Below are positions 38,192-60,484 of a stretch of 64,000 nt of DNA, piece after piece. The notes under the pieces are model-generated. The model was not told where the DNA came from, made no database searches, and was given only the letters and a program-made list of their open reading frames with translations. Position 1 is the first letter of the stretch, and each line of letters begins with the position of its first letter. The DNA is from Amia ocellicauda. Its lineage: Eukaryota; Chordata; Actinopteri; Amiiformes; Amiidae. The position numbers and the translations under genes were made by a program. Location: assembly GCF_036373705.1 (NCBI RefSeq), contig NC_089863.1, positions 24,247,917 to 24,311,916 of the forward strand. Reading direction: 5' to 3'.

Positions 38192-40552
38192 GGTGTGGTG
38201 CTGGTGGGGTTACCTGGGGTCGTGGGCCGGGCCCTGCTGGGCCAGGGGCAGGAACTCGCAGGCGCTGGCGCTCTTCTGGCTGAATTCCATCAGCAGGCTG
38301 ACCGGGTTCTTGCCCCCGGGGAGGGAGCGCGACACGGCCACCGCCCCGCCCTCCGGCACCATGCCTTCCGAGGCCACGCCCACCAGGGCCACACCCTGCA
38401 CAACAATGACACACGGTCACACACGCGGCCCCGCCCCTCTGACAGCCCCACTCCGCCTTGGCCCCTCTCTCACCGCGGGGTCGGCAGAGGGGTCGGGGTC
38501 CTGCGCCCACAGCTCCTCCCCGGCCTCCAGCTCCCTCTGCAGCAGCCGCAGCGCCTCAGCCGCCGCCTCCTTCTTTGCCGTCTTCTTGCTGGACGCCTCA
38601 GCCACTGGCAATCTGCGGCCGCCCAGCTCCACCTGCATCCTGAACCTGGGGGGGGACGGGGGTCAGAGCAGTGCAAGAGTAGTGTGTGGGCAGGGGGCGA
38701 GTGGCGGGCGAGCAGTGCGTAAGTAGTGGGCGCTAGGGTTGGGCGATATTAGAAAACTTAAGGGGAGCGCTTTTTCTCTAAAATTCACAAATTGAGATGT
38801 GCAAGTACGGTGGCCCTGTCCTGCACTGGGAGAATAAAGTGTCTTTCTACGTTTGACTCCTTGTTGCAGCCCATTAAACAGGAAAATACAATTGGGATTT
38901 TTTTCTCTTTCAGTCATCTTATTTTTATGATTGTAGGCCCTTTTTTGCGTTTGTACAGTTATGAAGTATTTTTATGATAGGAGAGGATGCCTTTTGTGCT
39001 TCAACCTTTTGATAACATGAGCTTTTTAGTTGTTGAACAAAAAGCAAACTTACAGTTCTTAGCACGGAGCATCCACGAACAATACAACTGAAGGCACACG
39101 TTTTTTTAATCCTCTGAACTGAAATTGGGCATGCATTAATTTATGGGGAAACGATCTGTGATAGAGACATGCGGTTTATTTCTGCTGCTTAGCTTAGCTT
39201 GGTGTGGTTTGTTTACATCGCGTCTGTCCTGGCTGCACTGCGCAGCTGCAGAACACAGGCTTGGTGCTGACCAATGGACGTTACTATGGTCTGTCATCAG
39301 CCTAGAGATCTTTTTTTTTAACCCAATCACAGACCGTGACTCTACCAACATATAGCCAATCCAAAGTACTCGGAAAGCCCTTGGACTCTCAGATGATATG
39401 GCAGGTGTCCGTCCCCCCCACATCGACGCAAAGTGCAAATTAAACAGATTATCATTGATGATTGTCACTATCGTCAATATACAATAATATCGTGGGCAAC
39501 TCCAGTGGGCGCAAGAGATATAACACTGCCCTGGGGTCGAGAATAGGGTGTGTGGAACCAGTAGCATGAGCACTGCGAGTAGGGTGTGAGTAGCGAGCAC
39601 TGACCTGGGGTCGTGGGAGGGCCCGCTCTGCTGCAGGAGCAGGAAGTGGCATGTGTGTCCGCAGTGCTGGGCGTACTCCAGCAGCCCGCTCACCGGGTTC
39701 TTGGCCCGGACCTCCAGCAGCTTCCGCAGCGCCGCCGAGCCGCCGGCCCCCTCCTGCGCCACCGCCCCCCCGGTGCCGCCGCCCACCATGGCGTTCAGGA
39801 ACTCCGGGATCTCGTCCGAGGCCCACTGCCCGTTCTGCCCCAGCTCCCCGAGTGGGGACGAGGTGGGCTGCAGTTCTGGATCCAACTTGGGCTTCTTGCA
39901 TCGGACCTCCTCCTCCTTCTCCTCTTCATCTTCCTCCTCCTGCTTGGCAGCGTTGTGTGGAGGTGGTGGCTGCTGTGGCTGTTCCCCGTTGCCCATTTCC
40001 TGTCCGGCTTCCCCGGCGCCACCCTCCTCCATCAGAGCAGGAAGTGGGACAGCATCTTCCAGATGGGCAGCGGACGGCGGCAGCATCACCGAGGCAACAG
40101 CGGCAGCCGTGGGGGCGGGGGCGGGGCCGGGGAGCTGGGCCTTCCTCTGGCGCTCCAGGCGCTGGCGCTTGTGGTCAGTGAGCTCCCACAGGTGGGGCGT
40201 GATGGCGGCATCCCGCGAGACGTCACCCTGCTTCTCCAGGACGTACAGCGTGGGGTTCACCTGCTTGGCCGTGCGCAGGCCCAGGTTCTTGGCGATGCCC
40301 AGGGCATTGCAGCGGCCCGACGTCAGCAGGTACTGGCACACGCGCTCCCGGATGTCCTCCCTCTCCCCCTCCATCTCTATCTCCAAGTCTGGGAGCGAGC
40401 CGTCCGTGTCAGAGTCCTGCCCAGGTGCCTCTCCTCCGTGTCTCACTCGTTCTCCTCCTCCTCCTCCTCGATCGTCTCTCTCTCGTTCTGTCGCCTCTAC
40501 GATCACCTCTCCTTCCTCCTCCTTGTCAGAGTCCAAATCAAAATCTGGGAAC

Positions 40553-40583
<31 letters not shown>

Positions 40584-41634
40584 CCTCCTCCTCCTCCTCC
40601 TCCTCCTCCTCTGCCTCCTCCTCTGCCTCCTCCTCTGCCTCCTCCTTCTCCTCTCTCTCCCTCTGTCCCTGCTTTCCCCCCAAGCCCCTGCACTCCTCCT
40701 CTGGTCCTACCTCTCTCCGCAGGCTCCAGAGAGGAGGGACGTCCCCGTGCTTCTGGGTGCGGCCCTGGAGCTGCAGCGAGTATAGGGCCCGGTTCACCAC
40801 TGCCTTGGGAAAGCTGAGGGTTCTGACCAGCTTTCGGAGCTCTAGCACCTGACCCGGGTCCAGGGACGCCAGACAGTCCAGCACCAAGCCCTGCACCAGC
40901 CGGTCGTCGGCGTAAGGACGGGCCCCAGCCGCACTACGTGGATTGGGCGAGTTGCGACGGTCGCCGAGGGCCAGGTCCCCCAGGCTCTGGGACAGGCAGT
41001 CGACGGGGTCGGCACACGGGCTTCTCCGCCCGCCTCTGTGGTACCGGTTCTGGCCAGGGTACTGGGCCCAGTTCTGAGCGTGAGTGTGGCTGTATGTGTA
41101 GTCTCCCCTTCCCCTGCTGTAGCCCCTGCAGTGCCCCCTCTGGCCAGGGCTGGCACTGTGGGAGTGGGCGGAGTACGAGCTGTGGTACCCGCCTCGGTGC
41201 TGGGGTGCTCTGGGCCTCTTTCCTGGCCCGGTTCCGACCCCCCCGCTGCTGCCGCCGCTCTTGCCGCTCTCGTTCTCCTCGCCTGCGTCCCTCTCCGCCA
41301 CTCTGCTGGGCCAGGCCGGGCCTTGGAACTGGGGAGCCTGTGTGTTCTGCCCCCGCAGGAACTGCACCTGCTGTAGGTGGAAGTCTGGGTGGCAGCTGTG
41401 GCCGTTGGCGACGGGAGGGTGGGACGGGGGTCCGACTGGAAAGTGTTGTAGGGGGGGCTGGGGCAGTGACCCCGGGGGCGGGAAGGGAGGTGGAGGGCGG
41501 GGAAAGGGGAGCTGGAGTGGCTGCCAAGAGCGGGCCGCCCGGCCGCGACCGGGGTAGCTCTGGTGACAGTTGGCCGAACGCTGACAGGGGGGAGGTTGGC
41601 GCGATGCTCTGGCACGGCCACCTCCTCTGTTCAT
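27938..41634 (-). CDS. adar: ADAR (ADAR1), dsRNA-specific adenosine deaminase, p150-type
   Basis: Fourteen coding exons (minus, in order): 41634-39605, 38645-38474, 38395-38214, 32785-32647, 32130-31898, 31783-31630, 31145-30977, 30717-30624, 30368-30255, 29824-29694, 29579-29397, 29299-29187, 28929-28802, 28217-27938 (stop TAG). All are GT-AG and in phase, giving 1373 residues. Z-alpha is about 240-305 with K277, N281, Y285, P300, P301 and W303. A long acidic run (about 323-360) follows. Z-beta is about 423-487 (N460, Y464, W483). Then come dsRBD1 (exons 1-2), dsRBD2 (3-4; [11 protein letters not shown]) and dsRBD3 (5-6; [24 protein letters not shown]). The deaminase has CHAE with H1047 and E1049, PCGDG with C1100, and MSCSDK with C1169. 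The enzyme converts A to I in dsRNA. Z domains and an upstream ISRE fit an interferon-induced cytoplasmic isoform. M421, just before Z-beta, is a candidate p110-like start. The C-terminus has a non-conserved glycine/serine tail after EEKSF. Human ADAR is 1226 residues. Confidence 0.97.
28680..28784 (-). mobile_element. hAT-like MITE fragment in the last ADAR intron
   Basis: On the minus strand it starts GGGGCTGCAACAAACAACTA and TTTTGATAATTGATTAATC, a common vertebrate hAT MITE end. It lies within about 20 bases of the exon 13 donor (28801). The other end is not obvious. Confidence 0.5.
32215..32662. repeat. minisatellite built on the ADAR exon-intron junction
   Basis: About 15 units on the minus strand of CTCACGCCCAAGG(C/T)ACTG plus ACGCCC, in a 24-bp short form and a 33-bp long form with TGACGCTCC. 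The first unit contains the true end of the ADAR dsRBD2 exon and its GT donor (AAG|GTACTG at 32650-32641). The other 14 units have AAGGCACTG at the same place. Confidence 0.95.
33889..34437. mobile_element. hAT MITE with perfect 8-bp target duplication
   Basis: Ends TAGGGCCTGA and TCAGACCCTA (inverse TAGGGTCTGA). Flanking GTCTTTAG occurs at 33881-33888 and 34438-34445. The interior has ATATCGGAGCACCGATATTA and TCGGCCGATATGG near the left end and TATCTGTATCGGCATC near the right end. There is no coding frame. It lies in ADAR coding intron 3. Confidence 0.9.
34690..36275 (-). mobile_element. degenerate Tc1-like element with transposase remains
   Basis: Same family as 7616-8194, with the right end CCAAATATTTATGGACCTAA then CTGTA. 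The left end starts within the subterminal repeat (TGTCATTATTTTGGCTCTGT), so the outer TIR is lost. Minus-strand fragments include an HTH-like [20 protein letters not shown] (about 35830-35890) and [20 protein letters not shown] (about 35430-35490). The latter carries the first catalytic Asp motif. Several frameshifts and stops make it inactive. Confidence 0.85.
36647..38158 (+). mobile_element. non-LTR retrotransposon 3' end (5'-truncated, frameshifted)
   Basis: Plus-strand fragments of the C-terminal part of a LINE ORF2. 36647-37183 has [20 protein letters not shown] and [20 protein letters not shown] second frame, 37033-37578, has [20 protein letters not shown] and [17 protein letters not shown] third, 37679-37882, has [20 protein letters not shown]-like sequence. 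The switches between frames are frameshifts. The 3' end has TTTGGCAATACTTC, CATGCCAATAAAAGCACG and repeated TTTGAA, then a (GA)n run. It is inserted antisense in ADAR, with its tail about 25 bases from the exon 3 donor at 38213. The LINE clade was not determined. Confidence 0.8.
38155..38190. repeat. (GA)n microsatellite next to an ADAR donor
   Basis: Direct continuation of the LINE 3' tail. It separates the tail from the ADAR splice donor at 38213-38212 by only about 25 bases. Confidence 0.9.
40555..40665. repeat. coding (GAA/GAG)n run in ADAR
   Basis: On the plus strand TTC/TCC/CTC triplets. They encode a long acidic tract between Z-alpha and Z-beta in ADAR (about residues 323-360). Length variation here would not break the frame. 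Confidence 0.85.
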
Positions 41635-43391: not shown

Positions 43392-43408
43392 AGTTTCGCT
43401 TTCCTTTC
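43392..43408 (-). promoter_or_regulatory. ISRE upstream of ADAR
   Basis: Plus AGTTTCGCTTTCCTTTC; minus GAAAGGAAAGCGAAACT. The core GGAAAGCGAAACT fits the interferon-stimulated response element GGAAANNGAAACT exactly. It lies 1.76 kb upstream of the ADAR p150-type start codon, within the CpG-richer stretch. Human ADAR p150 is driven by an ISRE-containing promoter, so this is the likely fish counterpart. Binding is not shown. Confidence 0.6.
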
Positions 43409-45371: not shown

Positions 45372-45377
45372 TTTATT
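45372..45377 (-). terminator. poly(A) signal of the tandem Z-domain gene
   Basis: Minus-strand AATAAA about 50 bases after the stop codon at 45428. The closeness supports 45428-46087 being a terminal, protein-ending exon. Confidence 0.5.
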
Positions 45378-45427: not shown

Positions 45428-46087
45428 TCAAAGGAGACTCCACCAGGGGGGCGTCCCTGGCTCGATGCGGACCCGCCCCTGCCGCAACAGCCAGTACAGC
45501 AGCTGATTGGCCGTCCGCTTGGGCACCCGGAGGGTCCTGGCAACCTGGGCGGCAGACATGGTGGCTCCGGGCTCCAGGGCCCCTAGCACACACAGCACCT
45601 CCTGGGGCCCGCAGCGGGCACCCTGGCGCAGGATCACGCAGCGGAAGCTGGCAAACAGGGGCACCCCCAGCTCCTGAGCCAGCTGGAAGGCGGGGAGGGC
45701 GCCCAGCAGGGAGGGGGCAGAGAGTGGCGGCTGCGCCTGCTGGGTCACAATGGACCCCTGCCCTGGGCTCGTCTCTCCCCTGCGGTGCTGTGGGGCTCTC
45801 GGGGGCCTGAGGGACCAGAGGGGTGGCACTGCATCTCTCCTGTAGAGGGTGCCTCTCCTCTCCAGGGCGTACAGGGTGGGGTTCACCTGCCTGGGGTAGC
45901 GCAGGCCCAGCCCAGCAGCGATCTGGAGGGCAGAACAGCCCGCCCACTCCCCAGCTCTCTCTCTGTCCGCCCTGTTCTCTCGCTCCTTTTCCCGCAGGAA
46001 AGCGCACACTCGTTCAGCCAGATACCCCTCTCCCTTGCCACTGCGTCCTCCGCCTCTCAGCGCCACCTCTCTCTCTCCAGCAGACAT
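45428..46087 (-). CDS. stand-alone tandem Z-alpha-domain protein (Z-DNA/Z-RNA binding), 219 aa
   Basis: Single uninterrupted minus-strand frame with ATG at 46087 (GAC before ATG) and stop TGA at 45428. It encodes two winged-helix Z domains. Domain 1 is about residues 20-95: helix 3 YPRQVNPTLYALERRG with N69 and Y73, beta-wing DAVPPLWSL with P88, P89 and W91. Domain 2 is about 160-219: VPKRTANQLLYWLLRQG with K190, N194 and Y198, wing GTPPWWSL with P213, P214 and W216. These are the positions that contact Z-form nucleic acid in ADAR1 Z-alpha. Domain 1 resembles the ADAR Z-beta of this window ([13 protein letters not shown]), and domain 2 resembles its Z-alpha. There is no kinase, RHIM or deaminase domain. 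It lies upstream of ADAR on the same strand, with its own stop and poly(A) signal. It could be a ZBP1/PKZ-type relative, an E3L-like decoy, or a partial ADAR duplicate. An upstream non-coding exon is possible. Confidence 0.8.
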   Translation of the reverse strand: MSAGEREVALRGGGRSGKGEGYLAERVCAFLREKERENRADRERAGEWAGCSALQIAAGLGLRYPRQVNPTLYALERRGTLYRRDAVPPLWSLRPPRAPQHRRGETSPGQGSIVTQQAQPPLSAPSLLGALPAFQLAQELGVPLFASFRCVILRQGARCGPQEVLCVLGALEPGATMSAAQVARTLRVPKRTANQLLYWLLRQGRVRIEPGTPPWWSLL

Positions 46088-47932: not shown

Positions 47933-48004
47933 TAGCAGAGGATGGTTTCGATCCATCGACCTCTGGGTTATGGGCCCAGCACGCTTCCGCTGCGCCACTC
48001 TGCT
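47933..48004 (-). tRNA. initiator tRNA-Met (CAT anticodon)
   Basis: 72 bases on the minus strand. It begins AGCAGAGTGGCGCAGCGG (A box TGGCGCAGCGG), has GGGCCCATAACCCAG (anticodon CAT), and a T arm with GGATCGAAACCATCC (the eukaryotic initiator AUCGAAAC form instead of TTC). It ends CTCTGCTA and is followed by TTTT. A1 pairs with the 3' arm as in initiator tRNA-Met. It lies about 320 bases from the ILF2 start codon, in divergent orientation. Confidence 0.96.
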
Positions 48005-48325: not shown

Positions 48326-55237
<6,912 letters not shown>

Positions 55238-59180: not shown

Positions 59181-59579
59181 TCCTCCCACTCGCTGTGAAA
59201 GTGGCAGGTTTTTCAGTTTCGTGCTGCTTAGTCCAGGATTACTCACACAAAGAACTTTATTGGAAAACAAAAAAAAAAACATTACACAACAGGATTATTA
59301 TTTGGATTAATTATTTTGACAGCTCTCCCTCTTTCTTAGTGTGGAACGTAAATGTACTACCTAGCGACAGTGCTTGTGCTTGCAAGTACGGTGGGGCGGG
59401 TTGGTCAAATTATATGTCAATCAAGCTTTTTTGGTGTATTTAGGTTATACAATAATAGTTGAGCAGGAAGCACATGGTGTTAATGAACGGTGGACCTCGT
59501 TATCAAGGAGACCCTGTAAATCGGCAAAATATATATATTTAGTGCATATGTTTAGAAAACTTATTCGATCTTCTAGATA

Positions 59580-60478
59580 CTGTTACTACTTCTACTACTA
59601 CTGCTACTACTAATGTTTCTACTGCTGCTACTACTGCTGCTACTTCTATTACTACTGTTACTACAACTACTGCTACTACTACTACCGCTACTTCTAATGT
59701 TTCCACTGCTACTGCTACTACTTCTGTTACTGCTACTACTAATTTTTCTACTGCTGCTACTACTACTGCTACTTCTATTACTACTGCTACTACTACTGTT
59801 ACTACAACTACTGCTACTACTACTACCGCTACTTCTAATGTTTCCACTGCTACTGCTACTACTTCTGTTACTACTACTACTGTTACTACTGCTACTACTA
59901 ATGTTTCTACTGCTACTGTTAATACTGCTTCTACTACTACTGTTACTACTGCTACTACTAATGTTTCTACTGCTACTGTTAATACTGCTTCTACTACTAC
60001 TGCTACTACTACTATTAATACTGCTGCTACTACTGTTTCTATTACTGCTGCTATTACTGCTATGACTACTACTGCTACTAGTGCTACTACAACTGTTGCT
60101 ACTACTACTACTGTTACTACTGCTACTGCTATGACTACTACTACTGCTTTTATTACTACTACTGCTTTTACTACTGCTGCTACTACTGTTACTACTACTG
60201 CTACTGCTATTACTACTACTGTTAATACTGCCACTACTGATACTACTACTACTACTAATGTTTCTACTGCTGCTACTTCTGTTACAACTGCTGTGGCTAC
60301 TGTTACTACTACTGCTGCTGCTACTACTGCTATCACTGCTACTGCTACTGGTGCTACTAAAACTGTTGCTACTACTATTGTTACTACAGCTACGACTGCT
60401 AATACTAATACTACTACTACCACTACTACCGTTACTACTGGTACTGCTACTACTGCTATTAATAATAATAAGCAATAG
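59580..60478. repeat. 0.9-kb (ACT/GCT)n trinucleotide-type repeat
   Basis: Imperfect ACTACTGCTACTACT and TTACTACTGCTACTAATGTT units with 60-90-base higher-order duplications. For example, the block with AATGTTTCTACTGCTACTGT recurs near 59899 and 59959. It is open in several frames on both strands, giving poly-Ser, poly-Leu, poly-Val or poly-Thr, none of which is credible protein. Confidence 0.95.
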
Positions 60479-60484
60479 AAAGAT

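Follow-up and report, generated by a model that had tools for sequence, protein, structure and literature searches.

The excerpted text of a 2023 review counts three eukaryotic proteins with a Zα domain, ADAR1, ZBP1 and PKZ (PMC10523160), to which excerpts of a later paper add candidates from corals and protists (PMC11298590). The excerpts of PMC9881149 and PMC11298590 assign PKZ to salmoniform and cypriniform teleosts, and a duplication of PKR and PKZ early in teleosts is a speculation in the excerpts of PMC7137213. Parts of the same literature describe how such proteins interfere with each other. ADAR1 competes with ZBP1 (PMC9881149, PMC10523160), and in a gel assay the Z domain of the viral protein ORF112 wins out over PKZ in binding Z-DNA (PMC9881149). 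Some tandem Z domains with their natural linkers also phase-separate and convert A-form RNA (PMC9881149, PMC10523160).

ADAR1, ZBP1 and PKZ each carry an effector domain. The frame described here, called ZZ for its two Z domains, carries none. It lies in a window of 64,000 nucleotides, the whole stretch of DNA that was analysed. Among the matches listed from the open-licence PMC literature, no title or abstract opening names a Z-domain-only fish gene.

A GC-rich two-Z-domain frame upstream of ADAR

ZZ is a single open frame of 219 codons, TGA stop included (45428..46087, minus strand; open frame and Pfam), as the first-pass annotation had claimed. A frame scan places its ATG at 46087 and its stop at 45428-45430. 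The predicted protein has a mass of 24 kDa, a pI of 10.7 and a net charge of +14. An AATAAA polyadenylation signal follows 51 nt past the stop (45372..45377, minus strand; motif match). The ATG is flanked by G at −3 and T at +4; 12 open codons precede it, preceded in turn by a stop and then CAG, so ZZ may have an additional 5′ exon.

The frame coincides with a sharp GC island: ZZ has 68% GC overall and 63-73% in steps along the frame, against 27-45% in the flanks at 44.4-45.4 and 46.1-48.0 kb. Of 20,000 sequences simulated with the dinucleotide make-up of ZZ, 0.19% leave this particular frame open, and 0.53% have at least one open frame out of three. Other long frames occur in the same stretch, one of 195 codons on the same strand and two of 179 and 126 codons on the opposite one. 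Given these frames and the GC content, the open frame by itself is only moderately telling; it is the two domain matches described below that rule out a chance origin. Elsewhere in the window (59570-60480), a long imperfect trinucleotide tract of ACT/TAC type leaves several frames of both strands open.

The coding exons of ADAR, located by tblastn with gar and tarpon ADAR, run from 41634 to 27953 on the minus strand and encode two Z domains, the dsRNA-binding and the deaminase parts. ZZ is thus upstream of ADAR on the same strand, in agreement with the earlier reading. Sequence comparison places the Zα domain of ADAR at 40711..40902 and its Zβ domain at 40165..40356, both on the minus strand. 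This ADAR is 82.7% identical to that of spotted gar over nine exon blocks, 73-78% identical to 17 further proteins with all nine blocks, and 69% identical to P0017 (six blocks). The comparison comprises 19 other proteins with any block, with P0020 (one block, 50%) set aside; P0019 and P0022 yielded none. These identities suggest that the DNA comes from an animal related to gar, probably bowfin. On its other side, ZZ is neighboured by ILF2, seen as five exon pieces on the plus strand (51950-54765; PDB match to ILF2, 4.8e-81). A tRNA-Met gene lies between the two (47933-48004, minus strand).

An interferon-response-element-like AGTTTCGCTTTC occurs between ADAR and ZZ (43392..43403; motif match only); being 3′ of ZZ, it suits ADAR better. 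A motif search 5′ of ZZ, up to ILF2, found no strict interferon element.

ZZ shares its strand with ADAR and precedes the first ADAR coding match by about 3.8 kb, so it could form all or part of an alternative 5′ coding exon, giving ADAR an isoform that carries additional Z domains. One moderate splice donor within the frame, CAG|GTGAAC at 45887, would fit such an arrangement. However, no other donor in the frame passes the score threshold, and this one would cut the first Z domain in helix 3, while its codons CAG GTG AAC are also found inside the ADAR Zβ domain. In addition, ZZ has its own stop directly after the second domain and a polyadenylation signal soon after. We therefore hold a role as an ADAR exon to be highly improbable.

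Two Z domains on a basic protein

The Pfam z-alpha model (PF02295), whose use the first-pass annotation had suggested, matches both domains of ZZ. The whole protein scores 75.7 bits (E 2.9e-21, cut-off 21), and singly the domains reach 40.2 and 38.4 bits in the genome search, each above the cut-off. Six further families at E ≤ 1 are general winged-helix models, all under their own cut-offs. As no further Pfam family exceeds its cut-off, nothing besides the Z domains is detected in the frame, again as had been stated.

Domain 1 (residues 22-94; 45806..46024, minus strand; Pfam, alignments and AlphaFold model) is of the ADAR Zβ type. Domain 2 (residues 159-219; 45431..45613, minus strand) is of the ADAR Zα type. 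The helix-3 Asn-x3-Tyr and the wing Pro-Pro-x-Trp, read in both domains at first sight, are N69, Y73 and P88-P89-L-W91 in domain 1 and N194, Y198 and P213-P214-W-W216 in domain 2, so both domains have the helix-3 Asn and Tyr and the wing Trp of the Zα family. The Lys noticed four residues before the Asn of domain 2 is K190; domain 1 has Pro65 there. This position is presumably K169 in human ADAR1 numbering. The Asn, Tyr and Trp of human ADAR1 are N173, Y177 and W195, according to excerpts of PMC11298590.

AlphaFold predicts two confident folds. Domain 1 has a ten-residue mean pLDDT of 85-97, and the alignments show its helix 1 followed by some 14 additional residues (about 35-48). The model of domain 2 is 0.8 Å from human ADAR1 Zα in its complex with Z-RNA. 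The closest PDB relatives of ZZ are also human ADAR1: 9b83 (1.3e-11), 1xmk for domain 1 (2.7e-6) and 5zu1 for domain 2 (7.7e-6). The 64-residue linker (residues 95-158; 45614..45805, minus strand; AlphaFold model) is mostly of low confidence, with pLDDT below 50 at 115-137 and 140-153, and is probably disordered, judging from the model; two helices are weakly predicted in it, at 132-139 and 144-153. Altogether, fold and contact residues make it quite likely that domain 2, and probably the tandem, binds Z-RNA or Z-DNA.

PKZ and other Z-domain loci in the genome

At E ≤ 0.001, a threshold that weaker paralogues might escape, the z-alpha profile finds six sites in the 988 Mb genome, all on one 36.2 Mb contig. 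Two are in ADAR and two in ZZ; the others are at 24.749 Mb and 23.121 Mb. The exon at 24.749 Mb codes for two Z domains, and PKR-type kinase exons follow on its strand. Joined together, the kinase pieces match Pfam Pkinase at 1.1e-46 (profile positions 1-194 of 263) and PKR as the best PDB entry at 2.3e-48; the joined sequence consists of five pieces hand-picked from open frames, without the last part of the kinase. Judged by these matches, the locus is PKZ, 455 kb from ZZ.

The PKZ gene (C20:24742000-24750000, minus strand) thus combines a two-Z exon with PKR-type kinase exons in a probable holostean, and PKZ may therefore be older than teleosts. In the alignment, Lys replaces the helix-3 Asn of its second Z domain and the wing Pro-Pro is absent; these altered contact residues may entail an unusual reading of Z-form nucleic acid. 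An interferon-element-like AGTTTCGTTTTC is found about 1 kb 5′ of the Z exon (L001:2734; motif match). The site at 23.121 Mb belongs to a second, decayed copy of PKZ (C20:23119361-23122543). Its Z exon is still open over 171 codons. Of the five kinase pieces, the first is broken across frames and the second is partial, and three did not turn up in the 40 kb searched.

The sole RHIM match in the genome (C2:31510919) is on a different contig from ZZ, and no ZBP1-like partner is seen at the sensitivity of the genome-wide RHIM and z-alpha searches. With PKZ a separate locus that has its own two-Z and kinase exons, ZZ is not a PKZ exon. Splicing of ZZ into PKZ or ZBP1, which would have spoken against a stand-alone gene, is thereby made unlikely.

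Domain order and ancestry

ZZ has a Zβ-type domain followed by a Zα-type one, the reverse of ADAR, and its domain 2 joins ADAR Zα in the best tree. The first domain of PKZ is also of Zβ type; the second is ambiguous and does not clearly share the domain-order argument that links PKZ with ZZ. From its sequence, ZZ appears to derive from the kind of tandem Z module found in ADAR and PKZ. An origin from ADAR, or a functional tie to it, had been suggested from its position. The ancestry in the ADAR/PKZ family of Z domains stands; plain duplication of the adjacent ADAR pair would leave the reversed order unexplained. Nor does the sequence point to a recent segmental copy: when 43.0-48.4 kb is compared at the nucleotide level with 27.0-43.0 kb, there is only one match, of 52 bp (86.5%; 45859-45910 to 40233-40284), inside ZZ domain 1 and ADAR Zβ and with dissimilar flanks. 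What ties ZZ to ADAR is the genealogy of its domain types, and the proximity may or may not be functional.

The affinity of domain 2 to ADAR Zα also bears on whether ZZ is a remnant of a PKZ or ZBP1 gene that lost its kinase or its RHIM. Against such an origin, PKZ is present 455 kb away with its own Z and kinase exons, and the ZZ frame, free of kinase and RHIM, ends in a stop codon with a polyadenylation signal behind it. A remnant is very unlikely.

Selection and conservation

ZZ has diverged far from the ADAR domains of its own genome. Amino-acid identity is 52% for domain 1 (60 codons) and 39% for domain 2 (59 codons), with 55% and 37% of third positions identical. Pairwise NG86 estimates are dN 0.52 and dS 0.73 for domain 1 (ratio 0.72), and dN 0.72 and dS 1.23 for domain 2 (ratio 0.59); GC bias may lower dS in this comparison. 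These ratios, below 1 but not low, indicate weak constraint or fast evolution.

We simulated neutral substitution starting from the present frame, at 0.1, 0.2, 0.34, 0.5 and 0.7 substitutions per site. The frame stays open in 14%, 3.7%, 0.8%, 0.5% and 0.1% of 2,000 runs, respectively, for substitutions alone, with the 4 to 31 frame-breaking indels expected left out. The full set of ten contact residues survives in 8.8% of runs at 0.1, in 1.1% at 0.2 and in none at 0.34-0.7. The rare survival of frame and contact residues favours a long history as a coding gene, and ZZ has probably been an independent one for a long time.

Conservation of the frame in other fish, on which the first-pass annotation had made its reading depend, was not found. 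A single-sequence search of 5.8 billion proteins returned only ZZ itself (one of 1034 candidates), and a profile search of the same set with E up to 10 returned 11 of 6212 and no orthologue. The 11 comprise ZZ, nine sequences that read as ADAR fragments and P0033; the six ADAR fragments with both domains have Zα before Zβ. P0033 (source ena, a 596-bp contig) has 81 residues and one Zβ-like domain, with Val-Asn-Pro-Gln-Leu-Tyr and Pro-Pro-Leu-Trp. The 90% cluster of ZZ is one sequence from one contig, the window's own. The protein set includes ADAR from gar and many teleosts, and an unannotated single-exon gene would escape it; ZZ is either lineage-restricted or overlooked.

This isolation, together with the high dN/dS, would also suit a non-functional or barely functional relic: a lineage-specific, unexpressed copy of a Z exon, open by accident. 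GC-rich DNA keeps frames open more easily by chance, as the additional frames of 195, 179 and 126 codons illustrate, and the decayed PKZ copy shows that Z genes do die in this genome. Yet despite its large divergence from the ADAR domains, ZZ has no stop or frameshift, it retains ten of ten tested contact residues, and AATAAA follows soon after its stop. We regard a relic as unlikely.

A possible mode of action

The reading we prefer, tentatively and as a whole at somewhat less than even chances, is that ZZ is a genuine, independent and diverged gene whose basic protein has a flexible linker between its two Z domains, lacks an effector and acts by occupancy of Z-RNA. ZZ is distinct from the PKZ locus and from the ADAR coding exons. 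Of this chain, the structure and the contact residues are shown; binding, expression and competition are inferred. For two binding modules on a basic flexible linker, occupancy would be the simplest mode; the lack of a catalytic partner suggests it, with a confidence just short of balanced. ZZ would compete for Z-RNA or condense it, and its occupancy would set the threshold for phosphorylation of eIF2α by PKZ and for editing by ADAR p150. The role of sensor or brake first proposed is plausible by analogy; most likely, ZZ would buffer Z-RNA against PKZ and ADAR p150. Counted against this reading are the missing orthologue match, the lack of a strict 5′ interferon element, a dN/dS of 0.6-0.7 and Pro65 in domain 1.

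The same features could serve a scaffold. ZZ may be a real Z binder that nucleates condensates of the stress-granule type or acts as a co-sensor, recruiting partners through its linker rather than competing. Phase separation is tied to tandem Z domains, a disordered linker and positive charge in the excerpts of PMC9881149, and ZZ has basic domains, a net charge of +14 and a 64-residue, largely low-confidence linker; partners might dock at the weakly predicted helices of this linker, 132-139 and 144-153. On the other hand, the Pfam search reveals neither a RHIM nor a kinase, a dsRBD or any further signalling domain in ZZ. We consider a scaffold possible, if doubtful.

By analogy with E3 and ORF112, an occupying ZZ would be a host-encoded decoy that lowers the access of PKZ and ADAR to Z-RNA. 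For ORF112, excerpts of PMC9881149 hold plain competition to be insufficient, as not every Z-binding domain could replace it; this argument either favours condensation as the mode or weakens the viral analogy.

Comparison with known Z-domain proteins

Like ZZ, the module of ADAR1 p150 has both of its domains, of the same types, in one exon, and it is a neighbour on the same strand. It differs by having Zα first and by the 52% and 39% identity of its domains to those of ZZ, which also lacks the dsRNA-binding and deaminase domains (Pfam) and ends after domain 2. PKZ, the fish Z-DNA-binding eIF2α kinase, resembles ZZ in its two Z domains in one exon, with the Zβ type first, and in being on the same contig; the C-terminal PKR-type kinase has no Pfam match in the ZZ frame. 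ZBP1/DAI likewise has a Z-domain pair on a linker (PMC2291453, PMC9881149, in excerpts), whereas Pfam finds no RHIM in ZZ and the PDB search matches ZBP1 more weakly than ADAR. Poxvirus E3 and cyprinid herpesvirus ORF112 have, as ZZ does, a Z domain without deaminase, kinase or RHIM. Unlike these antagonists, ZZ sits in a host chromosome beside ADAR, with ADAR-type sequence, and no viral relative was confirmed among viral contigs.

A bolder proposal, which we hold to be quite unlikely, is that ZZ represents a fourth class of vertebrate Z-domain proteins, a dedicated host Z-RNA decoy that restrains PKZ and ADAR p150, and perhaps also the surviving stand-alone form of a Z module that once fused to a PKR-type kinase to give PKZ. 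A module shared by ZZ and PKZ is suggested by their one-exon Z pairs, both starting with the Zβ type unlike ADAR, and by the presence of ADAR, ZZ and PKZ within about half a megabase of one contig. If a host gene with only a Z module is confirmed, cells, and not only viruses, would exert control by occupancy of Z-RNA. The domain order of ZZ offers a testable hint about the way in which PKZ came by its Z domains, and the linked ADAR-ZZ-PKZ set in a probable holostean is a natural place to study Z-RNA control. In its layout, ZZ stands outside the three known vertebrate Z-domain proteins, as an unusual variant within a familiar family of domains.
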